Origin: a virus
Length of the DNA: 64,000 nucleotides
Virus record (IMG/VR): IMGVR_UViG_3300019487_000022
Span: 1-64,000 of that record
Reading direction: 5' to 3' (one strand)
In this document: one piece after another, positions 10,600 to 53,888 of the stretch
Layout: every line of letters starts with the position of its first letter
Position numbering within the stretch: position 1 is the first letter of the stretch
The notes under the pieces: model-generated
Databases searched by the model: none
Told to the model about the DNA's origin: nothing
Seen by the model: the letters and a program-made list of their open reading frames with translations, nothing else
Translations under genes and position numbers: made by a program

Positions 10600-11273
10600 A
10601 ACTCAGCTCGCCCTGTTCTTAAAGCTTCTGCTAATTCTTCGTCTGACATCTCATTTCCACCGCCTTGTTCACGTTCAATTGCTTTTATATCTTCACCAGT
10701 AAACTGTAAATTAACTAAACCATCATCTCCATCAAACATCTTTTCTGCCAATGCAATTGAGCTACCAACGGCTCCATCTTTAATAGTTATATCATCAAGT
10801 TGGGCATCCTTAGCAGATTGTCTTTTACTCATATATTCAGCCTTAGCTTTAGATTCTTTTTTAACTGATTTCTGCATTGTTCTATAATTAATGATACGTA
10901 AAACTTTATCTTTTAATAGTTTTCTAGCTGCAACAGAGTTTTTAAGATTTTCATGTAATTCTTCATCTATTAGCTTAACATCAGCTGGTCCCTCAAATGT
11001 AAGACCTATATCCTGTATAATTACAGAACCTTTCTTAGTACATTGTAAAAAGTACGGCTGATCTGAATCATCTTCTTGATCTATTTCTTTTATAAGCCCC
11101 TGTATAGTTTTAATAAAATCTGTTAAACTAACATCTATGATTTCCGTAATATACATTACTCTACGACTTTTGATATTAGCAACAAGTTCTTCTAATTCAT
11201 CAAATTCATATATTTTTACGCCTTTATCTGAAAAATCTTTTATAACTCTATTTTCTACGTCTACAAATAGCAT
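10596..11273 (-). CDS. Hypothetical protein
   Basis: 225 aa from the ATG at 11273, chosen because GGAG lies 7 nt upstream and the start overlaps the previous stop (TAATG). Not recognised. The N-terminal half is mixed alpha/beta ('MLFVDVENRVIKDFSDKGVK', 'RRVMYITEIIDVSLTDFIKT'); the C-terminal half is charged and helical, with Lys-rich 'KSVKKESKAKAEYMSKRQSA' and an acidic end ('MSDEELAEALRTGRAEL'). Located between GT4 and GT9 genes; it could be a virion or scaffold-type protein, but nothing decides this. Confidence 0.6.
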   Translation of the reverse strand: MLFVDVENRVIKDFSDKGVKIYEFDELEELVANIKSRRVMYITEIIDVSLTDFIKTIQGLIKEIDQEDDSDQPYFLQCTKKGSVIIQDIGLTFEGPADVKLIDEELHENLKNSVAARKLLKDKVLRIINYRTMQKSVKKESKAKAEYMSKRQSAKDAQLDDITIKDGAVGSSIALAEKMFDGDDGLVNLQFTGEDIKAIEREQGGGNEMSDEELAEALRTGRAEL

Positions 11274-12676
11274 TATACACTCCAAATCTGTTTTAATCTC
11301 TCTAATATTGAATCGACTACGGTATCTATAGAATATTCTTTTTTAACCAAGTTTTGTAATTTTTTGTTTTTTTCTTTAGCCTTATTAGGATTTTCATAAA
11401 CATATCTCATTAATTGAGAAGCACCTTCTATTGTTTTATAAGAAGTTAATACAGGAAATACTTGTTCATCCCAATAATGCACATGCATAAGTCCAGACTG
11501 AACAGGAGCAAAAGAATCTGGATCTAAAAGATAAGAATTATCGTGATTCAAAAACATAGCTTGTCCACTGCAATTTGTGGAAATAACAGGTAAACCACAT
11601 AAAGAAGATTCACATAATGGCATTCCAAAACCCTCCCCGCGTGTAAATAATACAAACGCATTACACGATCTGTATAAGCTAGGCATTTTATTCTCAGGAA
11701 TAACTTTACTACATCTGACAATATGAGGTACATTTTTACCACCATATTGTTGACAATATGAATCTATTGTTGTGCGAATAATATCATTTTTCTCTGATGT
11801 ATTGTGATATCTAGAAACTAATAAAAGAGATACGTTATCTTTATCTGTAAATGCTTTTAAATAAGATTTTAATAATACATCAAAACCTTTTCTATAACTC
11901 CATCCAAAAACGCTTACAAAAACAAAGTCTTTTAGTTCTGGACGAAATTCATATTTATCCCCTTTAGAAGTATAAGAATCTACATCAACCGTGCATGGAA
12001 AGACATATATTGGTCGTTTTAATCCTGATTTTATAAGAATATCTTTTGAAAAATCTGAAGTTACCCATATTTCCTTATAATTGTTAGCTACTTCTAAAAA
12101 TTGCTTAGGAATTGAATAGGATTCAACTGTTGTATACAGTATAGAATTTCTACCACTACTGCAATTTCCAAATGAAGGTATCATACTATCGATTCTGATT
12201 GTGTTTTTATTAGGTTTTCCTCTTAAAGAAGACATTGTATACATTTCTTCATCTGTGAGATGATTTTTATTACCCACAGATTCTATTATGACTTTTACAC
12301 CTCTTTTTTGAAGAGCAAGGGCAAGATTACGATTTACTTTAGCATAACCACCAGCTTCAAAAAAGTGACCTTTAATCAAGACCTCTAGTTCTTTTGATTC
12401 TTGATTTTCTAGACTTATATTCTCTTCTTTATTGGGAGATAATATTTTTTGTTTTAATACAGCCATTTTTTCTTTCAATCTGTAAAGGTTGTTTTCAATA
12501 CGAGTATCTTCAATACTCTTAATTTCAAAAGTTTCAGCTAAAACCATAGCCTGAAAACCTTTAGATCTTAAAATTTCATCTTCTTTTATTTCTTGCTCAA
12601 TATCGTTTAAATACGGGATATGTTTATTAATATCTGCAAGATATATAGTATTTTTACTTTTATTTATAAATTTCAT
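11273..12676 (-). CDS. GT4 family glycosyltransferase
   Basis: 467 aa. After an N-terminal extension of about 95 residues comes a GT-B fold: donor-independent domain with 'GHFFEAGGYAKVNRNLALAL' (about 102), then the family-4 C-terminal domain with 'FVSVFGWSYRKGFDVLLKSY' (about 245) and the E-x7-E signature 'EGFGMPLCESSLCGLP' (about 350), which binds the nucleotide sugar. Retaining glycosyltransferase using an NDP-sugar or phosphosugar donor; acceptor unknown. AGGA precedes the ATG. It starts the glycan operon, downstream of a strong terminator at 12.7 kb. Confidence 0.85.
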   Translation of the reverse strand: MKFINKSKNTIYLADINKHIPYLNDIEQEIKEDEILRSKGFQAMVLAETFEIKSIEDTRIENNLYRLKEKMAVLKQKILSPNKEENISLENQESKELEVLIKGHFFEAGGYAKVNRNLALALQKRGVKVIIESVGNKNHLTDEEMYTMSSLRGKPNKNTIRIDSMIPSFGNCSSGRNSILYTTVESYSIPKQFLEVANNYKEIWVTSDFSKDILIKSGLKRPIYVFPCTVDVDSYTSKGDKYEFRPELKDFVFVSVFGWSYRKGFDVLLKSYLKAFTDKDNVSLLLVSRYHNTSEKNDIIRTTIDSYCQQYGGKNVPHIVRCSKVIPENKMPSLYRSCNAFVLFTRGEGFGMPLCESSLCGLPVISTNCSGQAMFLNHDNSYLLDPDSFAPVQSGLMHVHYWDEQVFPVLTSYKTIEGASQLMRYVYENPNKAKEKNKKLQNLVKKEYSIDTVVDSILERLKQIWSV

Positions 12677-18023: not shown

Positions 18024-19673
18024 ATGAATCAAATTATACATGTAATATTAATTTTAGATGATAGTCCATCTATGTTAATGCATAGAGAAAACACAAAATG
18101 TGGAGTTAACCAAACATTAGACACGCTACGCGCAGTTACTAAAGAAACAAAACAAGATATTTTTGTCACAATTGCAATTTTTGCAAGTGAAAATTATATC
18201 GCCCCAGGATTTTATTGCACCCCTCTTAATGAGACAATAAAATTTACTGATAACAATATGCCTTCATCGGGTTCTGGAACATTGATGAATAAAGCTTTAT
18301 TAAATATTCTTTCATCTGTACCAAGTTACGAAAACAACTTGTGCTGTATATTTACAGACGGAGAAACACACGACGGAGAATTATTTCCCCAAGCATCTGA
18401 TATGATCGAGAATATAAAAGATCAAGGATATACTTTTGCATATATTGGAGCTAATCAGAATGTTGAAGAGATTGTAGAAAAATTAAATATCTCAAAATCT
18501 AATTCTATGAAATATATTAGCGATGCAAATGGTACTAGAGGGGCATTTTATCAATTATCACTTGGTATTAGAAAATATTGTGAATTTAAAGCCAAGGGAA
18601 AAAATATTAATAAGATGTTTGATGTATTAGATATTAAGAAAACAAAAATGAAAGTTCGCGGTTTAGAATGTTCTATTAATACCCCAGAAGCAAGAATATC
18701 CGATCAAAATGTTAACTATCTACCGCCTTATGCTCCGACACCAGCATATGTAGTAGATGAATATCCTGCATGTCCTGATAATTGGATGCATGGCTCAGCT
18801 AAAGCATCCTCTTATTTCGTACCTGTTAAGACAGGAAAAGGGATGTGGCTAGATTTTAATGAAGCATCTAAAAAGAGCAGACATCATTTAGCAGCGGTTA
18901 TTTCTGTTCAAGGAGTTAATCCCGTAACAGGTCAAAGAACTTCCTCAATGAGATTGGAAAAATACGAAAATAAATGTCCAATACATGACATAGATTTCCA
19001 ACAAGATAGATTCTGTTCAGAATGTGAATATAAATGGCCTGCACAAAATTATTTAGCATCCAATATGACACCTCAAGGTCAATTTTGGATAGATGGTTTT
19101 AGAAACGAAGAAGGTTTGGTAAGACAATATATCTTTACAGAAGAAGAAGAAAAACGAGGCATAGCACAAGCTATTTCAGGTGATGATAGAGTTTTTGCTA
19201 TTGGAATTGCATTTTTCCGCAGCAAAAAGAAAAAACCCATTCCAAAACCAATATACTTTGGTGGATTTAGTGGTTATTCAGGTGTCTCAGGATATTCTGC
19301 TATAAGTGGCTATAGTGGCTATAGTGGATGTTCAAGAGTGTCTGGTTATTCTGGAATAAGTGGAAGTTGGTCGACACATGGAATAATGAATGCCACCGTA
19401 GATAGTATTGGTATTGGTGCATCTTATCCAGATCAACAAATTATATTTGATGAACCGATAGATGTTAAATCTTACGAAATTGCTGCCGGGAGTAAAATAA
19501 AACAGACAGTATATGAAGATACAAATAAAATATCTTTTTGGGAAGATGAACCTTATGCAATGTTGTATATCAATTATGCAGATGAAAAATCAGTAGAGCA
19601 AATCTTAGCAAAAGGTAAACGAAAATATCGACCTGAAGGATTTTTAACTAATATTCCGGTGGGTAATTCTTAA
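18024..19673 (+). CDS. VWA-domain protein with zinc-binding segment and GYSG repeats
   Basis: 549 aa. The N-terminal 190 residues form a von Willebrand A domain: MIDAS motif DxSxS in 'LILDDSPSM' (about residue 12), Thr in 'SGSGTLMNK' (about 88) and Asp in 'CIFTDGETHDG' (about 112). The middle has a four-Cys/His cluster ('CPIHDIDF', 'FCSECEYKW'), and residues about 413-450 carry Gly-Tyr-Ser-Gly collagen-like repeats. VWA domains bind protein partners through a metal ion. The GYSG repeats link it to the fibre-like protein at the left end, so it may be a virion or adsorption component. Good ribosome binding site (GGAG). Confidence 0.8.
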   Translation: MNQIIHVILILDDSPSMLMHRENTKCGVNQTLDTLRAVTKETKQDIFVTIAIFASENYIAPGFYCTPLNETIKFTDNNMPSSGSGTLMNKALLNILSSVPSYENNLCCIFTDGETHDGELFPQASDMIENIKDQGYTFAYIGANQNVEEIVEKLNISKSNSMKYISDANGTRGAFYQLSLGIRKYCEFKAKGKNINKMFDVLDIKKTKMKVRGLECSINTPEARISDQNVNYLPPYAPTPAYVVDEYPACPDNWMHGSAKASSYFVPVKTGKGMWLDFNEASKKSRHHLAAVISVQGVNPVTGQRTSSMRLEKYENKCPIHDIDFQQDRFCSECEYKWPAQNYLASNMTPQGQFWIDGFRNEEGLVRQYIFTEEEEKRGIAQAISGDDRVFAIGIAFFRSKKKKPIPKPIYFGGFSGYSGVSGYSAISGYSGYSGCSRVSGYSGISGSWSTHGIMNATVDSIGIGASYPDQQIIFDEPIDVKSYEIAAGSKIKQTVYEDTNKISFWEDEPYAMLYINYADEKSVEQILAKGKRKYRPEGFLTNIPVGNS

Positions 19674-19981
19674 TCATCTTCTAAGATATGACGAAATACA
19701 TCTGGATGAAATCTGAAATTATCCTCTGGTCCTAATGGAACAATATAATCTGTATCAAAATAAGGATCCTGTTTCTTTCTAATAACAAACTCTATTCTTA
19801 ATCTTGCTTCAGGGTATGATTGTTCTGGAATGATACTTCTCAAAGTCTCATAGTTTGGTATATCCATTTCTATGAGATTTTGAGTTGCTTCATCTCTAAT
19901 AACAGGATCAGGATGAGATAAATTCTGTATATTAAGAAATATATTTATTTGAGCAAAGAAAATAGCAAACCATGTTGACAT
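19670..19981 (-). CDS. Short HEAT-repeat-like protein
   Basis: 103 aa. 'NLSHPDPVIRDEATQNLIEM' has the pattern of a single HEAT repeat (paired helices with 'P..R..A...L'), followed by an acidic C-terminus with no known motif. It converges with the VWA gene and overlaps its stop by 4 nt. It is downstream of the terminase-like gene by 2 nt, so probably co-transcribed. Function unknown. Confidence 0.5.
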   Translation of the reverse strand: MSTWFAIFFAQINIFLNIQNLSHPDPVIRDEATQNLIEMDIPNYETLRSIIPEQSYPEARLRIEFVIRKKQDPYFDTDYIVPLGPEDNFRFHPDVFRHILEDD

Positions 19982-19983
19982 AT

Positions 19984-20904
19984 TTAATGAAGTCCTAAAT
20001 GTTTGTTTATCATTTTTCTTATTAACTCATTAGTGTTTTTATATCCCCTCTTTTTAGAATCGTTCTTTAAGGCAGAAACTATTTCTGATTTCAACCTAAA
20101 TGTTATTTGTTCTGTTTTAACCTTTTTAAATTGAACTCCAAATTCTGTATCAAAATCATCATCTGGTAAATTAGAGAAATCTTTTCTTAATTGATCTTGA
20201 GTATATTTACTATTGAATTGCCATGTTGACAAACTCATTGCAAGTCTTTTAGGAGAAGGCTGCATCATTTGATAAAATATACTCTTCTTCTTTAAAATTA
20301 CAGGCTCTTTACGCGGAGTAGATATAAAACAAGATTTGAACCCTAAGTTTGAGTAAATGTTTATAATTGGATTAAAACAATTAATAAATTCTCTTGCATA
20401 TTTTTTAGTAACAAAAGCAAATTCATTTCCTGCTAAAAAATAGGGAGTCAATCCTAAAAGGCTTTTACAGGTATTTCTATTAATATTTACTATTCTTATC
20501 ATCTTAAATATATCATTTAATTTATTTTTATTAGCAAATGAGTTAAAATAATGGCTCTTAAGAAATGTATATTTGATGGTGCTTTCCAGTATTTGAGCGA
20601 CATGAGAAGTTGGAGCAGACAATATAGCAACACAATTGTTAAGATTTAAAGATAATATATTTTCTTTGTTTAAACCAAGAATTTTTTCATTATGTATGAG
20701 AGCAAATAATCGTCTTGTTTCAATTAATAATATAAAAGCTAATAATTGATCTTTACCACTTCTTCTTCCTATTGCAAACGCAAACTCGTTAAAAATTGAA
20801 TCGCAATCAAATATACCACATGGGTACATTGCAGATAAAATCTGTTTTTGCCCACGATTTAATACAAAACCAGTATCTTTTTCAATAAACTCTATTGCAT
20901 TCAT
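19984..20904 (-). CDS. Terminase-large-subunit-like ATPase fragment fused to a ribbon-helix-helix domain
   Basis: 306 aa. Residues about 45-55 ('FAIGRRSGKD') match the adenine/Walker A region of phage terminase large subunits; 'FLAGNEFAFVTK' (about 158) sits where Walker B (usually hhDEfA) should be, with Asn for Asp; 'SCFISTPRKEP' (about 195) matches the STP coupling motif. The RNase-H nuclease domain is absent. Instead the last 40 residues ('ITFRLKSEIVSALKNDSKKR', 'TNELIRKMINKHLG') form a CopG-like ribbon-helix-helix DNA-binding unit. It is half the usual terminase length (about 500-600 aa), so it is likely a repurposed paralogue rather than the packaging motor. Strong AGGAG site. Confidence 0.65.
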   Translation of the reverse strand: MNAIEFIEKDTGFVLNRGQKQILSAMYPCGIFDCDSIFNEFAFAIGRRSGKDQLLAFILLIETRRLFALIHNEKILGLNKENILSLNLNNCVAILSAPTSHVAQILESTIKYTFLKSHYFNSFANKNKLNDIFKMIRIVNINRNTCKSLLGLTPYFLAGNEFAFVTKKYAREFINCFNPIINIYSNLGFKSCFISTPRKEPVILKKKSIFYQMMQPSPKRLAMSLSTWQFNSKYTQDQLRKDFSNLPDDDFDTEFGVQFKKVKTEQITFRLKSEIVSALKNDSKKRGYKNTNELIRKMINKHLGLH

Positions 20905-20964
20905 ATCTTGTCTCCTATTAAAGGATTCGACAAAATATGAACGGTAACTTTATAAAGTTACGAT

Positions 20965-22191: not shown

Positions 22192-23382
22192 TCACGCTAC
22201 TTTCAAATGTTTTCGCAAGGGGTTAATGACTACAGGCGTTGCGGCAACGCTCCTATCCCTTATTCCGAGGAACTCAGGGATTACTTTGCGTCCAATGTTC
22301 AAACTTCCGTTCACGTCGGCGTTCACGGCAAAGCCGTCCTTCGTGACGTACAATCCTCGATGCTTCCTCTTGCCTGAAAACTCGGAAACATCGTCGCCAT
22401 ACTTCGGCAGAGCGTCACGGTCGTAGAAACTCGCCTTGCTCGTATAGCTTTCTTCGGTGAAGACAACCTCGATCCCAGCCGCCAACGCTTTGTACTTGAT
22501 TTTCTCAAGCAGCAGATACGTTGGGACAGCACAGAATGCTTGGTTGGTCTTCTTGCCGAGGTTGATCCCGTTTTTCCATCCATCGTTCTTCCCAATGATT
22601 ATCGTACCGATGCCGTTGGTTCGGCATTCGGACACGATCATCTTCGAGACGTGATGGAAGTAGTTTTCCAAACGGAAGTACCTCTTACGCAGACGACTCT
22701 TACAGGGGCGTTTGTTGTACCACTGGTTGATATTCTTGACGATGCGACCGTTGACCAGTATTGGACGTGTCTGGTCTAAAGTTATCGCAGCCAAGTTGTT
22801 CAACCCGATGTCGATGGTGCAAATCTTCGCCTTGTCGAGTTTCGCCTTTTCTTTCTTCGCTTCTGGCTCACCGTCGTACTGAACTTCGATGACGAAGTCG
22901 AATCGTTTTGGGGTAATGACCACCTGTTTGTAGTTCTTGTCGCAGGGAATCGAGAAACAGTTATTGGTAGCCGTCAACTGCGTGAGCGGCTTACCCGTCT
23001 GACCGCCCTTGATCGTTTCGTTGTAGAAGATGACCTGTGCCATTTCTTCTTTGTAGTTGGGCGGCTTTGGGCATTTCACGAACTTGGACGTGTCCTTGCC
23101 GTAGGCGGTCAACGCCCTACGAAAGTTGCTCCAATCGGTCAGCACCTTGCGGACGGTCTGCTTCGCCGTCTTGGTGTTGTGTAGTTGTTTGAAGCAGTCG
23201 AGGTCTTTGACCTCTCGGATCAGGATGTTGATGTCGGGAAGTTGTGAAAATTTTGCTGGCGTTGGGGTGAACCACGCTTTTCGCATGAGGAACGTACAGC
23301 GATTGTACAGTTCCTTGGAGAGCGAGCAGAGACGGATAATCTCTGTGCTTCCCTTGTGAAAATGTCGTTCGACCATCAGCAT
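22192..23382 (-). CDS. tnpB: TnpB (RNA-guided nuclease of IS605/IS1341 family)
   Basis: 396 aa. RuvC-I is 'CTIDIGLNNLAAITLD' (about residue 190), RuvC-II region is 'TIIIGKNDGWK' (about 262) and RuvC-III 'VNADVNGSLNIGRK' (about 356). The RuvC-II site has Lys where the classical Glu stands; a Glu pair follows in 'FTEESYTSKASFYD', the arrangement of the TnpB branch with a displaced catalytic Glu. The usual zinc-finger Cys pairs are missing. TnpB proteins cut DNA guided by an RNA from the element's end. Base composition differs from its neighbours, indicating recent arrival. Confidence 0.9.
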   Translation of the reverse strand: MLMVERHFHKGSTEIIRLCSLSKELYNRCTFLMRKAWFTPTPAKFSQLPDINILIREVKDLDCFKQLHNTKTAKQTVRKVLTDWSNFRRALTAYGKDTSKFVKCPKPPNYKEEMAQVIFYNETIKGGQTGKPLTQLTATNNCFSIPCDKNYKQVVITPKRFDFVIEVQYDGEPEAKKEKAKLDKAKICTIDIGLNNLAAITLDQTRPILVNGRIVKNINQWYNKRPCKSRLRKRYFRLENYFHHVSKMIVSECRTNGIGTIIIGKNDGWKNGINLGKKTNQAFCAVPTYLLLEKIKYKALAAGIEVVFTEESYTSKASFYDRDALPKYGDDVSEFSGKRKHRGLYVTKDGFAVNADVNGSLNIGRKVIPEFLGIRDRSVAATPVVINPLRKHLKVA

Positions 23383-23791: not shown

Positions 23792-26700
23792 TTACGAAGC
23801 AACTTCTCCCGAATCATCCCATACATTCCCGTTCCATTGCTCAATAGTATCAATAGAACGAATCCCGTATTGGTAATCTCTGCCAAAACGATTGTTTATA
23901 ACCTTTAGCCCATCTACTCCCCTCGCATAAATCGTGTAATTACCACCATTTAACCAATTATTTTCAATAGTTATATTACTAATAGGTCCACTATCTTCTT
24001 TGAGAAAAACGGCAGCATTGCTTTTTGTCCCAGGAATATCTTTAGGAATATCAAAAAAGTTATTCCTAAAGATCATATTATTACCGTGTGTAAGCTGAAT
24101 GGCATCAGCATGCGCACTTGTATTTAATCCTAGATGATGAATCCAACAATTTTCAATAACATTGTTGTTTCGAGGATTAATCCCGTCTGTACCTGAATTA
24201 TGTATTTCTAAATTTCTGGCAGTAAAGTCCCAACCTGTTAATAATGCACCACTTGCTGATGTGCCAGAAAGTTCACCGTCTTCAATTAAGGCTGAACCTC
24301 CTTCAAATACCTTGATACCATAAGAACCGCTTGTGTTAAGAGTGAAATTTCTAATTATAACGTTCTTTGCATATACAAAAATTCTTCCTGTGATATTTAC
24401 ATTTTCAAGAACAAATCCATCCTGCGTTATATCCATATTGCCGATATTAGCAAAATTCGAAGGGTTACTGGTTGGGCCAGTATTATTAGGACCAGGTTTC
24501 GATGCTGGTTGTGGATCAGGATCTGGATTCGGGTTTGGATTTGGATTAGGGTTATTACCTGCCGGAGTTATCTCAATGAAAGCAACTTTGTTATTACTTG
24601 ATCCCGATGCGTTACTAACGGTTAATTTTCCATCTGTTACATTAACAGTAACATTACCTTCAATAAATCTATTTGTAGAGGTTGGCGTACCATTGACAGC
24701 TAAAACACCTTCAACATTAATTCTATAAATGCTATTAAAATAACTTGGATCTCCTGCAACTAACTTGACGTTATATGACCCATTAGGCAAACCTATTTCC
24801 CAAGTTCTGGTTCCATAGTTTTGCATATGATTAATTGTATCTAATCTTTGATCTGTTAATACTCCGCGATCCCTCGCATTTGGATTAGACTGATTCCAAC
24901 CGTAACTATAATTTCCTCTGTTTCCAAATACTAAACCTGTATCGGGTAAATAACCAGTGGGAACAGTTGAACCTGCTGGCAGAAAATCAACTCGTATTGT
25001 TTCTTCTGTAGGAGTTTCTGGCAAATCATTATCATCTTCTACAACCGTTAACGTTTTAGAAGTTAAATTTGGGGATGCAAATGTAAAAGATGCAGTTCCA
25101 TTTGTTGTGTCACTGTCTTCACTTGCATTAAATGTAATTACTTGAGGTTGATTCCAATTTTGGGGAGTAAATGTTACAGAGGATGAAGTAGTGGTTAAGT
25201 TCCCATCTCCGTTTTGTTTATTAATATTGACTGTAATATTGTTAGATGGTTGATTATCTAATCGTACAGAAACAGAATTACTATCTCCTTCTGCAACAGT
25301 TATTTGATTAGATGACAGAACTATATTTGGGGTTACAGGTGGAGGATTTGTATCTACATTTGTAATCTCAATAAAATTAATTTTGTTATTACTTGATCCT
25401 GCACCATTACTTAGGGTTAATCGTCCATCATTTACAACAACATTAATTGTATTATCAAACCACCGTTGAGATGTTGTTGGAGTTCCACTAATGATAGATT
25501 GTCCTTCAGCATTTATTCTAAAAACGCTATCCGTATGATTAGGATCTCCAGCAACCAATCTGACTGCATATGTTCCATTAGGAAGTTCTATCTCCCATTG
25601 TTTATTGCCGCCTTGCTGCATATGATTAAGAGTATCGAATCTCTGATCTACTGAATTAGCAGAATTGCGATCTCTAGTACTTCCTGTATTTACTTGATTC
25701 CATCCGTAATTGTAATCGCCTCTGTCTCCAAATACTAATCCACTATCTACTAGATATCCAGTGGGAATTGGAGCATTTGAAGGTTGAAAGTTAATACGGA
25801 TATATCCTTGTGGTGGAGGCGGGTTATTTGTATCATTATCATCTTCAGTCGCAGATAATGTTTGAGTTGTCAATCCAGAAGAAGCAAATGCAAATACCGC
25901 GTTGCCATCTATTGTATCTATATCTTCATTTGCGTTAATTTGTACTGATTGTGCTTGATTCCAATTTTGCGTGGTAAAAGTTAGAGTTGAGAATTGAGAA
26001 ATTAAATCGCTATCACCGTTTTGTCTGTTGATGTTAATGATTACGTTATTAGAGGGTTGCGTAGCCAAAGAAACGTTAACGGTACGATTACTTCCCTCTG
26101 GAATAACTAAGTTATTTGTTGAAAGTATAATGTTTTGTTGTGGTGGATTGGGTATAGAACCACCACGAGGATTCTGACTTGTATCTATTTGTAAAGATAA
26201 TCCGTTAGCAATTCTTTCCCACGGAATAAATTTAAAGTTTTGATTACCAGAATTAGAACCATCTTGAGTTACAAAAATCCCTTGGGAAAAACCATTGCCT
26301 AATCCTAAACTTAATACTTCAATACCATCCGAATCTGTAACTGCATCAACTGTTCCTGATCCTATATCAAAGGTTCCTAAATAAGCACCTGTATTTCTAT
26401 TATAAACAGTATATTCATCTGCTCCTTGACTGGAACAAAGCAAATATCCTGCTCCATTAGCCATTTCATAAACTGCTAATCCTTCAACGTCTGCTGTTAA
26501 ATGTCCGCTTCCACCTGTCGTATCGATTGCTACACGAGATGTTCCGGCATTTGGTTCAGCACTGTATCTCCAAATCCCTTCTTGTTCTTCTCCAACATAT
26601 AAGAAACCCTTATCATCGTCTGCAACCATTGCTTCAGTTGTTGAACCTACATCGAAGGTACGAACTATCTTTCCATCAATCTTGCCTGCGCCATTATCAA

Positions 26701-27220
26701 AAAGTTCCCATTGTTCAATGTTTCCACCATCGCTTCTGGAACTTAAAAAAGCATAAAATTTGCCGGAAGTTGGACTTTTGTAAAGAGCTACACCATAAAC
26801 TCCACCATCTAACCCTGTAGATAATGTGCGAGCTGCAATATTTTCTAATGCTCTTGTATTGGGATTGACTTTAAAAAGAGATAAACTACCGCCACTTACT
26901 CTTCTGCTGGCTGCTACTAAATCAATGGTTTCATTTCCTAATTGAAATCCATAACGAACATCTATATTATTGGTAGCCCCATTAGCAAAATAGCTAAGTT
27001 GTTGACCTTGAAGATTATATACGGCAATACCGCCGCCAGATGCTTTGTCTGTACCTATTACTGTACTTAACGATGGATTTGTAGGATGTACCCATATGGC
27101 TATATCGTCTGCAGAATCCCCGCTATGAGGTACGGGGGTTGTTTCGACACTAGCGGTAACTGTTGCAAATAATGTACGATTTTCAAGATGTTCTATGATG
27201 TGAGAATTATTCTGCGACAT
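23792..27220 (-). CDS. Secreted-type beta-propeller phytase with Calx-beta, carbohydrate-binding-like and beta-helix domains
   Basis: 1142 aa. N-terminus 'IIEHLENRTLFATVTASV' matches the LExRxLxA motif at the start of planctomycete exported proteins. Residues about 25-350 are a beta-propeller (3-)phytase: 'DDIAIWVHPTNPSLSTVIGT', 'YGFQLG', 'AMVADDDKGFLYVGEEQEG' (Ca/phosphate-binding acidic residues) and 'DVEGLAVYE'. Then come two alternating pairs of a Calx-beta-like domain ('EGSNRTVNVSLATQPSNNV'; 'AEGDSNSVSVRLDNQPSNNI') and a malectin-like ligand-binding domain ('FGDRGDYNYGWNQ'; 'FGNRGNYSYGWNQ'), a Pro/Asn linker, and a C-terminal right-handed beta-helix (about 930-1140). Phytases free phosphate from inositol phosphates. 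Clearly acquired from a bacterium. Ribosome site TGGAG. Confidence 0.8.
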   Translation of the reverse strand: MSQNNSHIIEHLENRTLFATVTASVETTPVPHSGDSADDIAIWVHPTNPSLSTVIGTDKASGGGIAVYNLQGQQLSYFANGATNNIDVRYGFQLGNETIDLVAASRRVSGGSLSLFKVNPNTRALENIAARTLSTGLDGGVYGVALYKSPTSGKFYAFLSSRSDGGNIEQWELFDNGAGKIDGKIVRTFDVGSTTEAMVADDDKGFLYVGEEQEGIWRYSAEPNAGTSRVAIDTTGGSGHLTADVEGLAVYEMANGAGYLLCSSQGADEYTVYNRNTGAYLGTFDIGSGTVDAVTDSDGIEVLSLGLGNGFSQGIFVTQDGSNSGNQNFKFIPWERIANGLSLQIDTSQNPRGGSIPNPPQQNIILSTNNLVIPEGSNRTVNVSLATQPSNNVIININRQNGDSDLISQFSTLTFTTQNWNQAQSVQINANEDIDTIDGNAVFAFASSGLTTQTLSATEDDNDTNNPPPPQGYIRINFQPSNAPIPTGYLVDSGLVFGDRGDYNYGWNQVNTGSTRDRNSANSVDQRFDTLNHMQQGGNKQWEIELPNGTYAVRLVAGDPNHTDSVFRINAEGQSIISGTPTTSQRWFDNTINVVVNDGRLTLSNGAGSSNNKINFIEITNVDTNPPPVTPNIVLSSNQITVAEGDSNSVSVRLDNQPSNNITVNINKQNGDGNLTTTSSSVTFTPQNWNQPQVITFNASEDSDTTNGTASFTFASPNLTSKTLTVVEDDNDLPETPTEETIRVDFLPAGSTVPTGYLPDTGLVFGNRGNYSYGWNQSNPNARDRGVLTDQRLDTINHMQNYGTRTWEIGLPNGSYNVKLVAGDPSYFNSIYRINVEGVLAVNGTPTSTNRFIEGNVTVNVTDGKLTVSNASGSSNNKVAFIEITPAGNNPNPNPNPNPDPDPQPASKPGPNNTGPTSNPSNFANIGNMDITQDGFVLENVNITGRIFVYAKNVIIRNFTLNTSGSYGIKVFEGGSALIEDGELSGTSASGALLTGWDFTARNLEIHNSGTDGINPRNNNVIENCWIHHLGLNTSAHADAIQLTHGNNMIFRNNFFDIPKDIPGTKSNAAVFLKEDSGPISNITIENNWLNGGNYTIYARGVDGLKVINNRFGRDYQYGIRSIDTIEQWNGNVWDDSGEVAS

Positions 27221-31344: not shown

Positions 31345-32451
31345 TTATTTTTCCCTAAAAACTATCTTTGCAAATTTTTGTAATAGTGTTGGAGAACTAT
31401 TTTCTCGCCTCATTCTATTTATAGTTGAGTTAGTTTTTTCTGTTTTTCTAATAATATCTTTTATTATTTCATTATCACTTATTTCATCTTTTTGACTTAT
31501 ATTTGCGTAATCATCTTTAAATGAACAAAAAGCATTAACTGCCCTGGATAACTTCAAATCATCTAAGCATAAATCATCACAAAGCATCATCTTTTTATAG
31601 CCAATATCATACAACCATGCTAATTCTGAAAAATCAACTGCATCAGGTACAGAACGACTAACACAGGATAAAAGAATTCTGGAACCAACAATTGCATTAG
31701 GATCAGCCTGAATAATAGTTTTCATGGCGTTAAGAATTTGATGAGGTTTCGGAACTTCTACATACAAATCACCTCTAGCTGCCATTAAACATAAATTAGA
31801 TTGACGTTTATAACCTTTTTTAACCCAATTTAATCCTTTAATACTTTCAATTTTTGCCACGATTTCTGCGTCTTTTCCTACATATTCTCTTAACTCATCG
31901 ATATCTCTTTGGCTTTCGACATAGGATAAAACATATTTATTAAAGCCTGCTGCTTTTACTTTCTTGATTTTTTCAATTTCATAGTCTGGAAATGTCCCAA
32001 AAACTTTAAACGAATCGTCTCTTATACAAATAGATTCCCCAGTTTTTACATTAAATTTAGGAGCGCCTGGTGCAAAATGAAGAATTTGTTCTCCTGTTAT
32101 TCCATCTTGAGTAATCTTATTCAAAACCGCATAATCTTCGCCAGCTTTAAAAAGAACCGTAGTTGGAGTTTTAACCTCAATCTTATGATTTAAGATTATA
32201 CGTAAATGGTCTTCTTTTGGAATGACTTTACAGATTCTAAGTTGCCTTCCCTTGATATCATAATATAGAGGATTAGCAGTACCTTCGGATTGACGTAGCT
32301 TAACTTGTTCTAACTCTCCATCTAATTCTGATAAATCCATCATTGCGCTATTGATTCTAATTCCAGCAATACGATCATCAAAGACAAACTTTTTAAAGTG
32401 AGGCATTGATGGAGAAAGCGTAACTAATAGATCTACAGAATTAGTTTTCAT
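31345..32451 (-). CDS. Pyruvate-kinase-like TIM-barrel protein
   Basis: 368 aa. Starts 'VDLLVTLSPSMPHFKKF', like the N-terminus of pyruvate kinases ('TKIVaTlGPas'); has 'EIVAKIESIKGLNWV' (about 190, catalytic-Lys/Glu region) and 'LCLMAARGDLYVEV' (about 220, the 'vaRGDLGvEi' metal-binding motif). The C-terminal allosteric domain of pyruvate kinase is missing and the B domain seems small. Could be a pared-down enzyme feeding ATP/pyruvate, or a relative with another substrate. A phage metabolic gene of this kind is unusual. Confidence 0.65.
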   Translation of the reverse strand: MKTNSVDLLVTLSPSMPHFKKFVFDDRIAGIRINSAMMDLSELDGELEQVKLRQSEGTANPLYYDIKGRQLRICKVIPKEDHLRIILNHKIEVKTPTTVLFKAGEDYAVLNKITQDGITGEQILHFAPGAPKFNVKTGESICIRDDSFKVFGTFPDYEIEKIKKVKAAGFNKYVLSYVESQRDIDELREYVGKDAEIVAKIESIKGLNWVKKGYKRQSNLCLMAARGDLYVEVPKPHQILNAMKTIIQADPNAIVGSRILLSCVSRSVPDAVDFSELAWLYDIGYKKMMLCDDLCLDDLKLSRAVNAFCSFKDDYANISQKDEISDNEIIKDIIRKTEKTNSTINRMRRENSSPTLLQKFAKIVFREK

Positions 32452-32466
32452 ATTCTTTGCCTTTAT

Positions 32467-33492
32467 TTAATCAAGCAAAGACTTGCTGCTTTTCGAGGCT
32501 GAATCCGCTGTTCTACGAGTAATAGAAGCGCCTTTGGGACCAGGCAATTTCTTTTGAGTCTTTTTTGCATGGGGCAACCGCCCAGGTTCTCTGCCATGAA
32601 TAGTTACGAGAGATTTCATAACCACTTCAATCTTCTTTTCACCGTCCGCATCCTTTAGTTGTCTGTCTTTCAATTCGTCCTTAAATTCTTTGATTTTTCC
32701 GGTAGCTTTAGCAAAAATTCCGAAAATGACATCAACAACTCTACTTGCTTCCGGCAGTGGCGCAATATGATCTTTACCTAGTAATTCTTCCCATTGGGAT
32801 TCAATTTTGATATCTGCATCGCTCATTCGGTTTCCAACAGCGCCATAAGGCTTTCTGATGATATAAACATCCCATTTCTTAGTTAATTCCTCCATGATAT
32901 CTTTGAGAAACATGGAACTGGATGTTTTAACTTTACAGAATTTTTCTGCATGGTCTGTGTACAGTTGTGGATGAATACCTTCATCGCCAATAAAGATTAG
33001 GATGGGACGGATAGCATTTGGAGTATCACAATTCCTAGAATAGTAAATAGCGGCTAAATCATAACTTTCTTGACAAGAACCTCCACCCCCACCTTCAATA
33101 ACTAACTTCTTCAATTTCTTTTCCAGCTCTTCGCCAGAATCAAAATTCTGTACCTGCAAAGCATATTTATCACAGTAAGCATCACCTACAGCTGCAAATG
33201 AAATAGAATAATTATCTCCAAAATAAAACTTAGCTTCATGATCAAGATATGGTAGTTTAGAGAAAATTGTAGCGGGCCATTCTCCCATTGAACCAGTTAC
33301 ATCACAAACGATAACAATAGGATTTTCACTGTCTGTACTGACTCTATCTGGTACTAAATCAGTAACAGCGATGCCCTTTTTGACAGCATCATCATAACTT
33401 CTTCCTGCATGTATATCATAAGCAGCACGGGCTGATTTAAAAGTATCATGACTTGCCCAAGGCGCCGGTGTATAATCATTATCTTCTGGCAT
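32467..33492 (-). CDS. VWA-domain protein
   Basis: 341 aa. The domain occupies about residues 55-270: MIDAS motif 'IVIVCDVTGSMGEWP' (DxSxS-like DVTGS, about 62), a Gly-rich loop 'IEGGGGGSCQESYDLA' with the Thr/Ser ligand, and 'PILIFIGDEGIHPQL' with the third acidic ligand. The C-terminus is Lys/Arg-rich and probably disordered ('SITRRTADSASKSSKSLLD'). Neighbours are a Ser/Thr kinase (12-nt gap) and the pyruvate-kinase-like gene. VWA proteins next to kinases and AAA+ ATPases occur in bacterial signalling modules. Confidence 0.85.
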   Translation of the reverse strand: MPEDNDYTPAPWASHDTFKSARAAYDIHAGRSYDDAVKKGIAVTDLVPDRVSTDSENPIVIVCDVTGSMGEWPATIFSKLPYLDHEAKFYFGDNYSISFAAVGDAYCDKYALQVQNFDSGEELEKKLKKLVIEGGGGGSCQESYDLAAIYYSRNCDTPNAIRPILIFIGDEGIHPQLYTDHAEKFCKVKTSSSMFLKDIMEELTKKWDVYIIRKPYGAVGNRMSDADIKIESQWEELLGKDHIAPLPEASRVVDVIFGIFAKATGKIKEFKDELKDRQLKDADGEKKIEVVMKSLVTIHGREPGRLPHAKKTQKKLPGPKGASITRRTADSASKSSKSLLD

Positions 33493-33503
33493 TGATTATC
33501 TCC

Positions 33504-34481
33504 TTAGATTGGTAAAGGTTTCATTTTTGAAAATCTTCGCCCAAAAGATTTTTCTCTTACGTCACTTATAGATTGACATAAATCTTCTTTTTGCCAATTT
33601 GGGCGAGATAATACATTAAATTGAATCAAGTTTTTAATGAATTTACAAATTTCGTCAGGAACAGATGGTGGAACCGCTTTTGAAGTCACGTCTCCACCTA
33701 AAGCGTAAATCATCGTCATTCCCAAACTAAAAAGGTCTGACTCAGGAATTAATGGCATTCCTTTGGTTTGTTCTGGAGAAGCAAAATACGGCGTAAAACC
33801 CTTGTTTTTAGTAGTAGAATTTGGTTTAACTGCCGATAAGCCATAATCTACCAATACGACAGAATGGCGGTCTGGTTGCACAATGATATTTTGCGGTTTA
33901 ACATCGCCGTGAACTACGCCATGTGTATGTAAATATCTGAGAGCATTTAAAACACGTTCTGTAATCCAACAAACATGTTCAGGTTCTAGTTTGCCATGTT
34001 TTTCTACTATTTGTCCTAATGTCGCGCCAGGAACATAACTCATTACAATTGCTAAACTATTATCATCTAATTTGATTATTTCTCTAATTGCCGGAATAGC
34101 CCAATGTCGCAAATCCCAGATAGCCTTAGCCTCTTCTTTCATTATCTCTTCGTCTTGCAAACTAATTTGATTTGCATGCTTAATGCAAACATGTGTTCCT
34201 AATAATTCATGGCGGGCTTTATAAGTTGTTCCAAATCCCCCTTCTGCAATCGCGTCTTCTAGAATATAATTTCCAATTTTCTTTACTTTCTTAGGCGAAT
34301 TTTCCTTATCATAAGCTGAGCGTTTATCTGTGTTTAAAAGTATTTCTTTTGCTTCATTTAAGTCTTGTAAAATTTTAGGGTTAGAAGCATGTTTAAGAGC
34401 TAAAGTTCTGTATGCCATATGAATGACTTCTTGACATGCTTTAGGATTTACCTCAAGGATGTTGTAATAATTCTTTCCCAT
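33504..34481 (-). CDS. J-like domain plus Ser/Thr protein kinase
   Basis: 325 aa. Residues 1-60 look like a J domain ('NYYNILEVNPKACQEVIHMA', 'NEAKEILLNTDKRSAYDK') but the HPD motif that stimulates Hsp70 is missing (KHASNP). Residues about 65-325 are a Hanks-type kinase: Gly loop 'AEGGFGTTYKARH', Lys in 'HVCIKHAN', catalytic loop 'VVHGDVKPQNIIV' and 'VDYGLSAV' in place of DFG, then 'ASPEQTKG'. Predicted active Ser/Thr kinase, cytoplasmic. Adjacent VWA and nearby phosphatase genes suggest one signalling set. Confidence 0.85.
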   Translation of the reverse strand: MGKNYYNILEVNPKACQEVIHMAYRTLALKHASNPKILQDLNEAKEILLNTDKRSAYDKENSPKKVKKIGNYILEDAIAEGGFGTTYKARHELLGTHVCIKHANQISLQDEEIMKEEAKAIWDLRHWAIPAIREIIKLDDNSLAIVMSYVPGATLGQIVEKHGKLEPEHVCWITERVLNALRYLHTHGVVHGDVKPQNIIVQPDRHSVVLVDYGLSAVKPNSTTKNKGFTPYFASPEQTKGMPLIPESDLFSLGMTMIYALGGDVTSKAVPPSVPDEICKFIKNLIQFNVLSRPNWQKEDLCQSISDVREKSFGRRFSKMKPLPI

Positions 34482-34497
34482 TGTAAGGTGTTAGTAT

Positions 34498-35730
34498 CTA
34501 GGTTTTAGTTTCTGGAGAAAAGGTTTCTGGTATTCCAAATATCGTTTGATTTACCAGCCTTTTTGTTTTATTTTTAGATTTTGTTTCTTTAATAAATTTA
34601 TTTAAGTTTGCGTCTTCATAATCCGCTGGTACTAAATAACTAACGAGAGAAGGACGTGTAATTACCATACCGATTGTTTCAAAACAAACCAAACCTACTT
34701 TAAGATTTGGGATATTACGATCAGGATAAGTTTTTAAAGGCAAAGCAGTTTTAAAATTACCCAATTGCTTAGGGTCTCCGCTGAATAATATTCCGCCTGG
34801 ATTCATATACCTTGAAACCAAAATATCTGCATCTTTGTATTTTCCAAAACTATATTTAGGACCGACGCCTTTCATAAGATCTAAGTTATTTACTTTTGAA
34901 AAATCCCAGTCTTTCCCACGATATGTTCTCATTTCTGCGTAGTCTAATGTATGACATATCATGTATTTAACTTGGATCTGTTCGTTTACTGCATTATAAG
35001 ATTTTGCAATTAAATTCTCAGTTATTCCGCCTGTGTATTCTATTATATTTTTTGAAATATAAGCAGAGGCTCGTAACATAAAGAAAAGATGAGAATTTTC
35101 ACATTGTGCAATAGATTCGCAGGTTATTGCAGAAAGACGACGAAAAACAGACGATCTATTATGTTCTAAGTCCGATATTTTCAAAGTGGGTCTTGCAGCA
35201 ATTTGTACTGGTAATGGAAAAATTTCTTTTACATCTTTTATAACGTGAGCTGAATCCCCTTCTAAAACCAATACCGGAGAATTAGTTACTATTGGAATAG
35301 CTGCAAAATTGTGTACCGTTTCTGTTTCATCTTCCTTTTTGTCTTCTTCTGAATTTAGAACTATCATAGGAAGTGATAAACTTCTAATTTTCTTATGGTA
35401 TGATTCATTTATTTTATTTTGGATTGATGAAGGTTTTATATCCAATAACTCTTTTATATCATCTATATTTAAATCTTTTAGTATATCTGAAAAGTTATTA
35501 TGAAATCTTATTTCAGAGTGATTTATTTCGTTCGTATCAGAATCTGTGCTTTCTTTTGGTAAATTATTTTTAATATCATTTGCATAAATTTCGACACAAC
35601 TGCGAATTAAATCTACATAAGATATATCCATATTTCTTTGAAATGATAACTTTCTTGCCTCTTGTTGTATTAAAGCAATTGTTTCTGGTAAAAACCTCAT
35701 TGTTATAGGTTGCAACTCTGATTCATTCAT
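34498..35730 (-). CDS. Ribbon-helix-helix domain fused to a major-capsid-protein-like domain
   Basis: 410 aa. N-terminal about 55 residues ('ITMRFLPETIALIQQEARKL', 'YVDLIRSCVEIYANDI') resemble a ribbon-helix-helix DNA-binding unit. From about residue 165 the protein is alignable by eye along its length with the capsid protein at 53.0-53.9 kb: 'LPVQIAARPTLKISDLEHNR' against 'PTFEIGANPTVRLSEIKAHR', 'AITCESIAQCENSHLFFMLR' against 'QIKAKEAIQKEEDTHIFAAL', and 'LKVGLVCFETIGMVITRPSL' against 'LRLGWVIYEEVGIVVVNDYS'. It is therefore an HK97-fold paralogue, not in the head operon. Possible roles: minor capsid component or a regulator binding DNA. Confidence 0.65.
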   Translation of the reverse strand: MNESELQPITMRFLPETIALIQQEARKLSFQRNMDISYVDLIRSCVEIYANDIKNNLPKESTDSDTNEINHSEIRFHNNFSDILKDLNIDDIKELLDIKPSSIQNKINESYHKKIRSLSLPMIVLNSEEDKKEDETETVHNFAAIPIVTNSPVLVLEGDSAHVIKDVKEIFPLPVQIAARPTLKISDLEHNRSSVFRRLSAITCESIAQCENSHLFFMLRASAYISKNIIEYTGGITENLIAKSYNAVNEQIQVKYMICHTLDYAEMRTYRGKDWDFSKVNNLDLMKGVGPKYSFGKYKDADILVSRYMNPGGILFSGDPKQLGNFKTALPLKTYPDRNIPNLKVGLVCFETIGMVITRPSLVSYLVPADYEDANLNKFIKETKSKNKTKRLVNQTIFGIPETFSPETKT

Positions 35731-51130: not shown

Positions 51131-51181
51131 ATACTTTGTCTCTATTAAGAAATTGATGGCGATTTTTTAGGGATGCTCGAT

Positions 51182-51226
51182 TACTCATATATAAGTAATT
51201 TTAAAATCATTACTTATATATGAGTA
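51182..51226 (+). other. Perfect 18-bp inverted repeat next to the array (leader hairpin)
   Basis: Arms 51182-51199 and 51209-51226 (TACTCATATATAAGTAAT and its complement) with a 9-nt loop. It ends one base before the first CRISPR repeat and follows the Cas12-like stop by about 50 bp. No T-run follows, so it is not a classical terminator. The right arm contains CATTACTT, complementary to AAGTAATG inside every repeat, so it could also pair with crRNA repeats. Confidence 0.6.
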
Positions 51227-51227
51227 T

Positions 51228-52053
51228 GTTGTAATGCATTACGTTAAAGTAATGTTATGCAACATGGTCCAGGCGGATTCCAAATCCATAACGTAGCTTC
51301 GTTGTAATGCATTACGTTAAAGTAATGTTATGCAACATTAGCTAAGCCAACGCAATACTAAGACAGCGCACAGTTGTAATGCATTACGTTAAAGTAATGT
51401 TATGCAACATGACTGAGCAAGGTACATCATCGGGATATTATGAGTTGTAATGCATTACGTTAAAGTAATGTTATGCAACTACCTTCGGATAATATTTGAC
51501 TGTTTAATTGTCTCGTTGTAATGCATTACGTTAAAGTAATGTTATGCAACTCTCTGATGAAATTGTTATGTAGATACTCAATAATAGCGTTGTAATGCAT
51601 TACGTTAAAGTAATGTTATGCAACTCTATTCGGATACATATGCTCTTCTTGCGCAAATGAGTTGTAATGCATTACGTTAAAGTAATGTTATGCAACAGAT
51701 AAAATGATTGCCGTTAGGCGGGTAGATATGCGTTGTAATGCATTACGTTAAAGTAATGTTATGCAACAGAGTCAGCGAAGCGTAAGGTATGATTCCGCAG
51801 CGTGTTGTAATGCATTACGTTAAAGTAATGTTATGCAACTCAGTCAAAACAATATCAACAAGGCATAATCTAACGTTGTAATGCATTACGTTAAAGTAAT
51901 GTTATGCAACAGGGTAGCATTCACAGTATTTCTCATAGTTATTCGAGTTGTAATGCATTACGTTAAAGTAATGTTATGCAACGTCCTGGTATATTGTGGA
52001 ATATGATCCGTTCCAGCGTTGTAATACATTATGTTAAAGTAATGTTATACAAC
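51228..52053 (+). CRISPR. CRISPR array, 12 repeats of 36 nt, 11 spacers
   Basis: Repeat starts GTTGTAATGCATTAC and ends GTAATGTTATGCAAC, with loop GTTAAA between; the two halves form a near-palindromic hairpin. Repeats start at 51228, 51301, 51373, 51444, 51515, 51589, 51661, 51732, 51804, 51875, 51947 and 52018. The first eleven are identical; the last has three changes (positions 9, 15 and 32), marking the leader-distal end. So transcription runs left to right, in the same direction as cas3 and the Cas12-like gene. Spacers are 35-38 nt, all different, none obviously matching elsewhere in the window by eye. Confidence 0.97.
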
Positions 52054-53003: not shown

Positions 53004-53888
53004 TTAGCTTGCGCTAACTACTTCGATTTTCGACATACTATAGTCATTGACAACTACAATACCGACTTCCTCATAGATTACCCAACCCAAACGTAATTTC
53101 TTAGGATCATCGCATGGGATAACGGTGATTTCCTGACGAACAGGGAATGCACCGACGTTTTCAGCAGCAGCGAGAACAAGAACGGTGTTCTGTTCCATGC
53201 GGCTGGTTACGTGGATATCGGCAGTCCATAAGTGACCGAACAACCCAGTTGTGATAACTTCGCGCTGAGAAGCTTCGTCATAGAAGGTCTTACCAAGTAC
53301 GCGAATTGACGAGTACTGGAGAGCATTCATAACGATCTTAGCAGCTACTAAGTCGTGCTGTTCAATCAAGCGGAAAGCAGTGTTCAAAGAAGCAACGGAA
53401 AGAGTCCCGATGTTCTGAACAATTTGATCTCCACCTTCTTTGTTATCAGCAGCAGAAATCAAAGCAGCGAAGATATGTGTATCTTCCTCTTTTTGAATAG
53501 CTTCTTTAGCTTTTATCTGTGCGCGATCAACGATATAAAAGCGGTGAGCTTTAATTTCGGATAAGCGAACAGTTGGGTTTGCACCGATTTCAAATGTTGG
53601 AACGAGAATTTCTTCTGCTTCAATAATTTGATCAGGTACACCACCACGGCGGCTGATAACAGTTGCCTTAGCTGCAACGTCACGTTCGTAACGAGCAGTA
53701 GCACCCTGTGGGAGTTCGTCAACCATCAAGAGCTTGCGACCGACAGCTTGATACTCAAGAGATCGGCGAATAGGCTCTACCATTGCCTGAGCAAGAGCAG
53801 TACGACCTTCTGGAGTTTCCATAGCCTGAGCTATAATCCATTTGCGCTGTTCTTGTGTTAAACCATTTTTTACCATTGCCATTGTCAT
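53004..53888 (-). CDS. Major capsid protein (HK97-fold)
   Basis: 294 aa, with strong ribosome site TTAAGGAG. N-terminal helices ('LTQEQRKWIIAQAMETPEGR'), then 'VPTFEIGANPTVRLSEIKAH', 'SSIRVLGKTFYDE', 'TADIHVTSRMEQNTVLVLAA' and 'LRLGWVIYEEVGIVVVNDYS', the order of segments in HK97-fold capsid proteins of large myoviruses (the E-loop-like region near 80-120, P-domain helix near 125-150, A-domain beta strands). Forms the head shell. It lies in head-gene order after protease, decoration-like protein and portal. A divergent paralogue is encoded at 34.5-35.7 kb. Confidence 0.85.
   Translation of the reverse strand: MTMAMVKNGLTQEQRKWIIAQAMETPEGRTALAQAMVEPIRRSLEYQAVGRKLLMVDELPQGATARYERDVAAKATVISRRGGVPDQIIEAEEILVPTFEIGANPTVRLSEIKAHRFYIVDRAQIKAKEAIQKEEDTHIFAALISAADNKEGGDQIVQNIGTLSVASLNTAFRLIEQHDLVAAKIVMNALQYSSIRVLGKTFYDEASQREVITTGLFGHLWTADIHVTSRMEQNTVLVLAAAENVGAFPVRQEITVIPCDDPKKLRLGWVIYEEVGIVVVNDYSMSKIEVVSAS

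Follow-up and report, generated by a model that had tools for sequence, protein, structure and literature searches.

A terminase ATPase-like protein with a ribbon-helix-helix tail and its capsid-derived counterparts: candidate autoregulators encoded by phages

The window analyzed here, 64,000 nucleotides long, comprises bases 1-64000 of a 123,806-base IMG/VR record (IMGVR_UViG_3300019487_000022; label G000), which may itself represent part of a larger genome. It carries a gene for a 306-aa protein in which an ATPase domain of the type found in terminase large subunits (TerL) is predicted to be joined to a C-terminal ribbon-helix-helix (RHH) domain. The features of this locus are as follows.

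19984..20904, minus strand: TerL-ATPase-RHH hybrid protein, 306 aa; ORF exact and open, ATG start
20119..20904, minus strand: TerL-type ATPase domain, residues 1-262, from VIA-align and the TerL ATPase profile
20749..20769, minus strand: Walker A motif GRRSGKD, residues 46-52, intact in the alignments
20425..20427, minus strand: Walker B position, with Asn160 replacing Asp in the alignment with full TerLs
20314..20322, minus strand: coupling motif STP, residues 195-197, from alignments; SSP in most full TerLs
19987..20115, minus strand: predicted C-terminal RHH domain, residues 264-306, from RHH_1 and NikR models, AF2 helices, and the RHH alignment
19670..19981, minus strand: 103-aa ORF directly 3' of the hybrid gene

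The 103-aa ORF, which is probably cotranscribed with the hybrid gene, had no family match in Pfam, PHROGs, or PADLOC; it was considered as the neighboring toxin that a type II toxin-antitoxin pair with an RHH antitoxin would call for.

By profile and predicted fold, the ATPase half of the 306-aa hybrid is a TerL homolog, in line with the original prediction, which had read a TerL ATPase from the Walker A and STP motifs, both of them kept. The protein scored 66.2 bits with a profile built from 23 full TerL ATPase domains (the record's own TerL and 22 relatives), and the best of 1,000 shuffles of the protein reached 6.0 bits; of the record's 162 ORFs, none but the hybrid and the true TerL (568 bits) scored, the third-best ORF standing at 1.4 bits. 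The hybrid also matches PHROG phrog_9, "terminase large subunit" (E 4.4e-4), and at 7/7 Walker A positions it has the residue commonest among 28 full relatives. Its AF2 model (pLDDT 80.8, pTM 0.76) found the P74-26 TerL ATPase as the top Foldseek match in the PDB (E 3.5e-8), and VIA-align superimposed the two with a Z of 20.9 and an rmsd of 2.3 over 210 residues. TerLs fill rows 1 to 21 of the VIA-align results, including the Avs3-bound TerL (8dgc; Z 15.0), and DEAD-box helicases follow only after them, with a Z of at most 13.6, so that descent of the ATPase half from another P-loop family is out.

The departures from a working terminase that had been predicted were also found. At the Walker B position, Asn160 stands where 28/28 full TerLs, and a second TerL hybrid from another phage (L195, described below), have Asp; the Glu that follows (Glu161) is retained, and the exchange could be plain decay of activity. 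No part of the protein aligns to the nuclease domain, the RHH domain ending the protein after residue 262. Because it misses two defining features, the Walker B Asp and the nuclease, we do not class the hybrid as a terminase. Among the 86 near-invariant columns (conserved in at least 26 of the 28 full TerLs), 39 are kept in the 306-aa hybrid and 56 in the L195 hybrid; the former retains TW, residues E, G, and F in the EFG segment, and residues S, P, and R in the SSPR motif. Both TerL hybrids have lost GHSN, a segment that precedes Walker B and is otherwise near-invariant, as well as the N-terminal segment common to full TerLs.

The search for the true terminase, suggested for comparison, located a TerL of 658 aa at positions 76357-78333 of the record (minus strand), in the conserved structural/packaging block. 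It carries Walker A, SSP, and a Walker B of the form ILDE, the nuclease aspartates can be made out by eye, and it matches phrog_9 with an E of 3.1e-19. Its presence bears on a split terminase, in which the 306-aa hybrid would be one half and the nuclease would be encoded elsewhere: ATPase-sized terminase entries do occur in BFVD (e.g., 235, 313, and 331 aa), but the full-length TerL refutes this arrangement for the window, and we regard it as very improbable. Simple duplication of the phage's own TerL, as originally proposed, is not supported either. In blastp the best matches of the hybrid were TerLs of other phages (E 6e-14), with the own TerL weaker (E 1e-4), a ranking that rules out a recent copy, and in trees the hybrid could not be placed, its branch being too long. 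The L195 hybrid groups with the ordinary TerLs L196, L199, and L200 at 96/91 and for this reason may have arisen separately; a single origin of the two TerL hybrids (p-AU 0.196) is neither established nor rejected by the trees. Alignment A5 took in 28 of 71 TerL loci, filtered by length, motifs, and similarity, and both the TerL profile and the trees excluded TerLs cut by contig ends (L234, open at the 5' end; L180, L181, and L227, open at the 3' end) and intein-like TerLs with open frames of ~780-1425 aa. The latter (e.g., L106, L198, and L215) are interrupted either near residue 591 or within Walker A, where the break corresponds to residue 143 in the own TerL, and the interruptions are probably inteins.

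A C-terminal RHH domain had been predicted as well, and the tail of the hybrid reads as one; the contrary outcome, a C-terminus without this domain, did not occur. Pfam RHH_1 gave an E of 0.0026 at 18.1 bits, below the cut-off of 20.5, NCBIfam NikR models gave E values of 0.0042 and 0.028, and a search of PDB sequences with the tail returned NikR (1q5v; E 0.11), the three other matches being unrelated and at E values of at least 1.5. The AF2 model places helices at residues 273-285 and 291-305 with good confidence and a strand at residues 263-270 with a pLDDT of <50, as expected of a strand left unpaired in a monomer. In the strand pattern Q-I-T-F-R-L, the residues Q, T, and R point to the same side, as they do in Arc. 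Below the Pfam cut-off and with a low-confidence strand, the tail is by itself weak ground for the regulatory reading proposed below. In our view it is very probably an RHH domain, the signal being suggestive alone and strengthened by the comparison with other fused RHHs given below. RHH_1 matches 4/5 domains of the fused and related set at an E of ≤0.1 (best E 4.8e-5). A search of the whole record for RHH_1, using family PF01402, gave no match.

A second hybrid in the window joins an RHH domain to a paralog of the capsid protein.

34498..35730, minus strand: RHH-capsid hybrid, 410 aa, with a predicted N-terminal RHH (residues ~7-55) and a major-capsid-like region (residues ~150-365)
53004..53888, minus strand: true major capsid protein, 294 aa, the comparison gene

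Here the original prediction had placed a capsid paralog, at 34.5 kb, with a DNA-binding tail; the kinship stood, and the RHH domain proved to be N-terminal. The hybrid matches phrog_2522 with an E of 4.4e-13 (the true capsid protein gives 2.3e-64) and NCBIfam capsid_Caudo_2 with an E of 1.8e-15, and across 215 residues it shares 20% identity with the own capsid protein; its AF2 model was poor (pLDDT 53) and was left out of the analysis. The true major capsid protein shares 53% identity with gp27 of Bacillus phage G, a level that marks the record carrying the hybrids as a relative of the phage-G group. In an all-versus-all comparison of the 162 ORFs, the substantial paralog pairs were TerL, capsid, and a VWA pair, with two other weak pairs involving short ORFs. 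The VWA protein at 18024-19673 has collagen-like GYSG repeats, and its VWA part is paralogous to positions 95040-95798 of the record. Downstream of the RHH-capsid gene, after 16 bp, lies a gene for a DnaJ protein with a Ser/Thr kinase domain (33504-34481), followed in the same row by a gene whose product looks VWA-like by eye (32467-33492) and one for a pyruvate-kinase-barrel-like protein (31345-32451); the row at 31345-35730 is possibly one operon.

The original prediction took two such cases in one genome as a sign of a common theme, and two further hybrids in two other phages bear this out. The first IMG/VR scan, with a TerL ATPase alignment headed by the 306-aa hybrid, gave 71 loci, in all of which (71/71) the matching frame was inspected. 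With the exception of L195 (IMGVR_UViG_3300009702_001278; 65.8 kb), these are ordinary TerLs, including some that are extra-long or truncated at a contig end. L195 encodes a 314-aa TerL-ATPase-RHH hybrid with the RHH domain at the C-terminal end, which aligned to residues 8-306 of the 306-aa hybrid (E 8e-16), has an intact Walker B, and scored 198 bits with the TerL ATPase profile. Because its frame starts at the first base of the contig, its N-terminus may be incomplete; no other TerL was found within the 65.8-kb fragment. A second scan, with L195 and the 306-aa hybrid as the query, returned nine loci: L195 and eight terminase-like proteins without a detected RHH.

The RHH of L195 and that of the RHH-capsid hybrid in the window are mutual best non-self matches among 18,926 ORFs (E ~0.002 each way). 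A scan with RHH segments only, using three segments (from L195, the window RHH-capsid hybrid, and a stand-alone RHH of L260), gave 43 candidate stretches, of which two were confirmed, L195 itself and the following gene on L266 (IMGVR_UViG_3300009529_000013; 45.3 kb).

L266:3980-5035: RHH-capsid hybrid, 351 aa, with an N-terminal RHH and a capsid-like remainder

The RHH of this protein is 47% identical to that of L195. With the capsid profile the protein scored 30.2 bits (31.2 without the RHH; the best of 1,000 shuffles reached 3.2), and it matches phrog_2522 at an E of 9.8e-4 and, on the RHH side, phrog_876, "transcriptional repressor," at an E of 0.01; a full TerL is also present on the contig. 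The scan was not fully blind, as the window capsid hybrid had supplied one query segment, but confirmation came through the RHH of a TerL hybrid. By sequence, the RHHs of L195 and both capsid hybrids are thus detectably related. The RHH of the 306-aa hybrid failed to find those of L195 and the capsid hybrids among the 18,926 ORFs and aligns with the other fused RHHs only in a profile. Altogether, three phages carry four hybrids, and an RHH of the same kind occurs twice as a stand-alone protein (L260 and G010). Stand-alone RHH proteins related to the fused ones are encoded at L260:10643-10822 and L275:1492-1779 (both minus strand); the one on L260 lies beside an IS200/IS605-like transposon (by eye) and 2.9 kb from a TerL gene.

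The hybrids are rare or patchy, with the qualification that most of the related records are fragments. A profile of the RHH domains found matches in 4 of 55 records, namely G000 (two), G051, G054, and G010, where the match is a stand-alone 95-aa protein; L195 and L266 belong to G051 and G054, which were fetched because of their hybrids, and the profile was built from hybrids, so that these matches arise by construction. Fifty related records were searched with the hybrids themselves (50 of 82 loci, all but one from contigs of at least 30 kb). The 306-aa hybrid matched in 37/50, in frames of 588-1425 aa except for one 79-aa frame with stops, and the capsid hybrid matched in 49/50 in a capsid-length frame (248-323 aa), with two more weak matches in short frames of G010. 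Apart from the three hybrid-bearing records, no hybrid was detectable in the 52 other related records, most of them fragments. Searches for relatives elsewhere also returned no match: the 306-aa hybrid in the phages collection or, as a single sequence, in viral_contigs; the true TerL as a single-sequence query in viral_contigs; alignments A3 and A8 in genome_contigs; alignment A7, used for capsid hybrids; the fused RHHs of L195 and the window RHH-capsid hybrid in the phages collection or PDB sequences; and RHH alignment A9 in PDB sequences.

This distribution bears on whether the 306-aa hybrid is a decaying remnant or arose when a TerL fragment and a stray RHH gene were joined by chance. Its very long branch, the retention of 39/86 conserved columns, and the occurrence of the exact protein in one record only would fit decay, but the 306-codon frame has stayed open at ~25-30% identity with 7/7 Walker A residues intact, the same architecture occurs in L195 and its mirror image on the capsid paralogs of two phages, and operator-like repeats lie upstream. 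We consider decay unlikely.

Both window hybrids lie within a variable accessory region, outside the packaging/structural block. This region is bracketed by the capsid gene at 53 kb on one side and by genes at 9-12.7 kb on the other, and it spans ~1 kb in G007, ~11 kb in G014, and ~47 kb in G003; in the window, ~40 kb of accessory genes (12700-53000) separate the conserved gene at 11273-12676 from the capsid gene, and these include genes for uracil-DNA glycosylase, a kinase, and VWA proteins, a CRISPR array, and Cas3-like and Cas12-like genes. The CRISPR locus (45267-52053) comprises a gene for a Cas3-like HD-helicase (45267-47726), one for a 1137-aa Cas12h/TnpB-like protein (47717-51130), and an array (51228-52053) in which 11 spacers separate 12 repeats of 36 nt. 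The pairing of type V with Cas3 is unusual, and a comparison of the 11 spacers with 179 records, the window among them, gave a full match only at the array's own place, other matches covering at most 21 bases. A TnpB-like gene at 22192-23382 was probably acquired recently, because its GC3 is 0.68 against 0.19-0.37 in seven other measured genes. The 1142-aa phytase-like protein at 23792-27220 resembles planctomycete surface proteins at its N-terminus by eye, which we take to be a hint at the host. Placement in a variable region that also contains CRISPR-Cas genes, together with Asn160, which suggests that hydrolysis is lost, would suit a dominant-negative weapon, a motor-dead TerL and a divergent capsid copy that poison the packaging or head assembly of a coinfecting phage. 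We hold this to be quite unlikely: Walker B is intact in the L195 hybrid, so motor death is not common to both; the RHH would be left without a reason; and the divergence from any known rival is strong.

The regions upstream of the hybrid genes contain repeats that could serve as operators.

20944..20961, no strand: candidate operator of the 306-aa hybrid gene, a perfect palindrome of 18 bp (GTAACTTTATAAAGTTAC) lying 40-57 bp 5' of the start codon
35740..35763, no strand: three tandem 8-bp boxes TGTAATCG TGTAATCT TGTAATCG (gene's strand), candidate operator, 5' of the ribosome-binding site of the RHH-capsid gene

The palindrome sits in the 60-base gap before the start codon and is unmatched in length across the 162 upstream regions (p 0.0007 per 70 bp; the p-values of the palindrome and box tests are post hoc, both repeat types having been noticed in the sequences before testing), with two perfect 18-bp palindromes observed in the window against 0.5 expected. 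The boxes, which lie just before the RHH-capsid start codon at 35730, are the only period-8 triple with at most two mismatches in the window (0 in 40 shuffles) and rank 1 of 162 upstream regions. On L266, ATGTAATC ATAACATT ATAACATT lies directly 5' of the ribosome-binding site of the hybrid gene, with an exact period-8 doublet (post hoc p 0.001) and the same TGTAATC box as the RHH-capsid gene of the window (post hoc p 0.012). Tandem arrangements of this kind have a precedent in ParB of pSM19035, an RHH protein described as binding contiguous short repeats (PMC9499535). The palindrome and the 8-bp boxes have in common only a GTAA core and do not imply a single recognition code, and the two stand-alone RHH genes have no such tandem repeats by eye. 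A role of the palindrome as a terminator was set aside, no terminator-like site being found there or elsewhere in the upstream regions of the 306-aa hybrid and RHH-capsid genes; in neither region did the strand of the gene show a promoter-like site.

Sequence comparison, profiles, and predicted folds show a hybrid of two domains, the recurrence of this architecture in other phages, and a full TerL elsewhere in the genome. Our preferred reading, to which we give about even odds (roughly 0.5), is that the 306-aa hybrid is a self-regulated, nonpackaging RHH autoregulator whose virion-derived domain binds a ligand as bait or sensor. Its RHH would repress its own gene at the palindrome just upstream, and the RHH-capsid hybrids would likewise repress theirs at the 8-bp boxes; the TerL-like half would bind what normally binds TerL, either a host immune sensor or the phage portal, TerL, or procapsid; and the ligand-bound hybrid would leave its own operator, so that its output would track the amount of ligand. 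Regulation by the hybrid RHHs has moderate support, and repression of the hybrids' own genes is supported, short of proof, by the upstream repeats; the role of the virion half as the ligand-binding part, and the choice of ligand between host immune sensor and assembly partner, we infer. With this, the observation behind the original prediction is confirmed and its interpretation partly upheld: the suggestion of regulators has gained from the candidate operators, and simple duplication of the own TerL is unsupported.

As the ligand, we lean slightly toward a host sensor, with the hybrid as a self-titrating decoy, because of the accessory-gene setting, the high divergence, the kept ATP-binding core and fold, and the copying of two virion proteins that are sensed by defense systems. 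Capsid proteins trigger other bacterial defense systems. Avs1 to Avs4 are described as sensing TerL, portal, or another phage protein (PMC12931631); this sensing concerns whole TerL, whereas the 306-aa hybrid has the ATPase domain alone. It is conceivable, if doubtful, that large phages encode a class of such decoys, in which an RHH repressor is carried on paralogs of the terminase motor and the major capsid protein; each decoy would shut down its own gene until host immune sensors, or rival assembly parts, pulled it away from the operator, and its output would then track how much sensor the cell contains.

An assembly partner as the ligand leads to the rival that we place close behind, an assembly-coupled regulator or packaging adaptor in which the phage's own portal, TerL, or procapsid would be the docking site of the TerL-like half and phage DNA the target of the RHH, either to feed assembly status to transcription or to choose DNA as a small terminase would. 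The retained ATP-binding core and ATPase fold are consistent with it, as is the suitability of RHH domains for sequence-specific DNA binding, and the capsid hybrid would likewise report on capsid assembly. We rate it possible but on the doubtful side, since ~20-30% identity to the own TerL and capsid makes common assembly interfaces questionable, the gene lies outside the conserved packaging block, hybrids went undetected in the 52 other related records, and GHSN is missing from both TerL hybrids. The dominant-negative, decay, and split-terminase explanations are less likely than either the self-regulated hybrid or this rival.

Virion proteins are usually viewed as structural parts. The hybrids, which involve two different virion proteins, related DNA-binding domains, and three phages, suggest that virion folds have been reused as information-processing modules, turned into regulators or decoys. 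As Avs immunity is known to respond to TerL, a single small gene would suffice for a direct test of the decoy model, and the assembly-sensor model, if true, would link late transcription to the building of capsids.

In the titles and abstract openings that were searched, with subscription papers mostly outside that scope, we found no description of TerL-RHH or capsid-RHH fusions. Small proteins of PICI, and Tab, are described as interfering with head, packaging, or tail assembly (PMC10884400); unlike the hybrids, those described in the available part of that source are not RHH-fused TerL-ATPase or capsid paralogs. Candidate anti-defense proteins of archaeal viruses are described as containing HTH or RHH domains (PMC11065993). 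The likeness of the hybrids, which are known from sequence, to autoregulated phage decoys and anti-defense proteins is one of possible role, and unlike phage anti-defense proteins they have no match in PADLOC (0/4). With TerLs of the phage-G lineage the 306-aa hybrid shares the ATPase fold, Walker A, STP/SSP, and the TW and EFG motifs; unlike them, it has Asn in Walker B, lies outside the packaging block, has gained an RHH, and is without the N-terminal subdomain segment, GHSN, and the RNase H nuclease, a C-terminal domain described as a universal feature of TerL in Caudovirales (PMC7824862). Unlike RHH regulators of the CopG/MetJ/Arc/NikR type, the hybrids would owe their effector or ligand part to a virion protein, and the 306-aa hybrid misses the Pfam cut-off; the likeness to these regulators lies in the predicted strand-helix-helix, the Thr and Arg of the strand, and the repeats 5' of the own gene.
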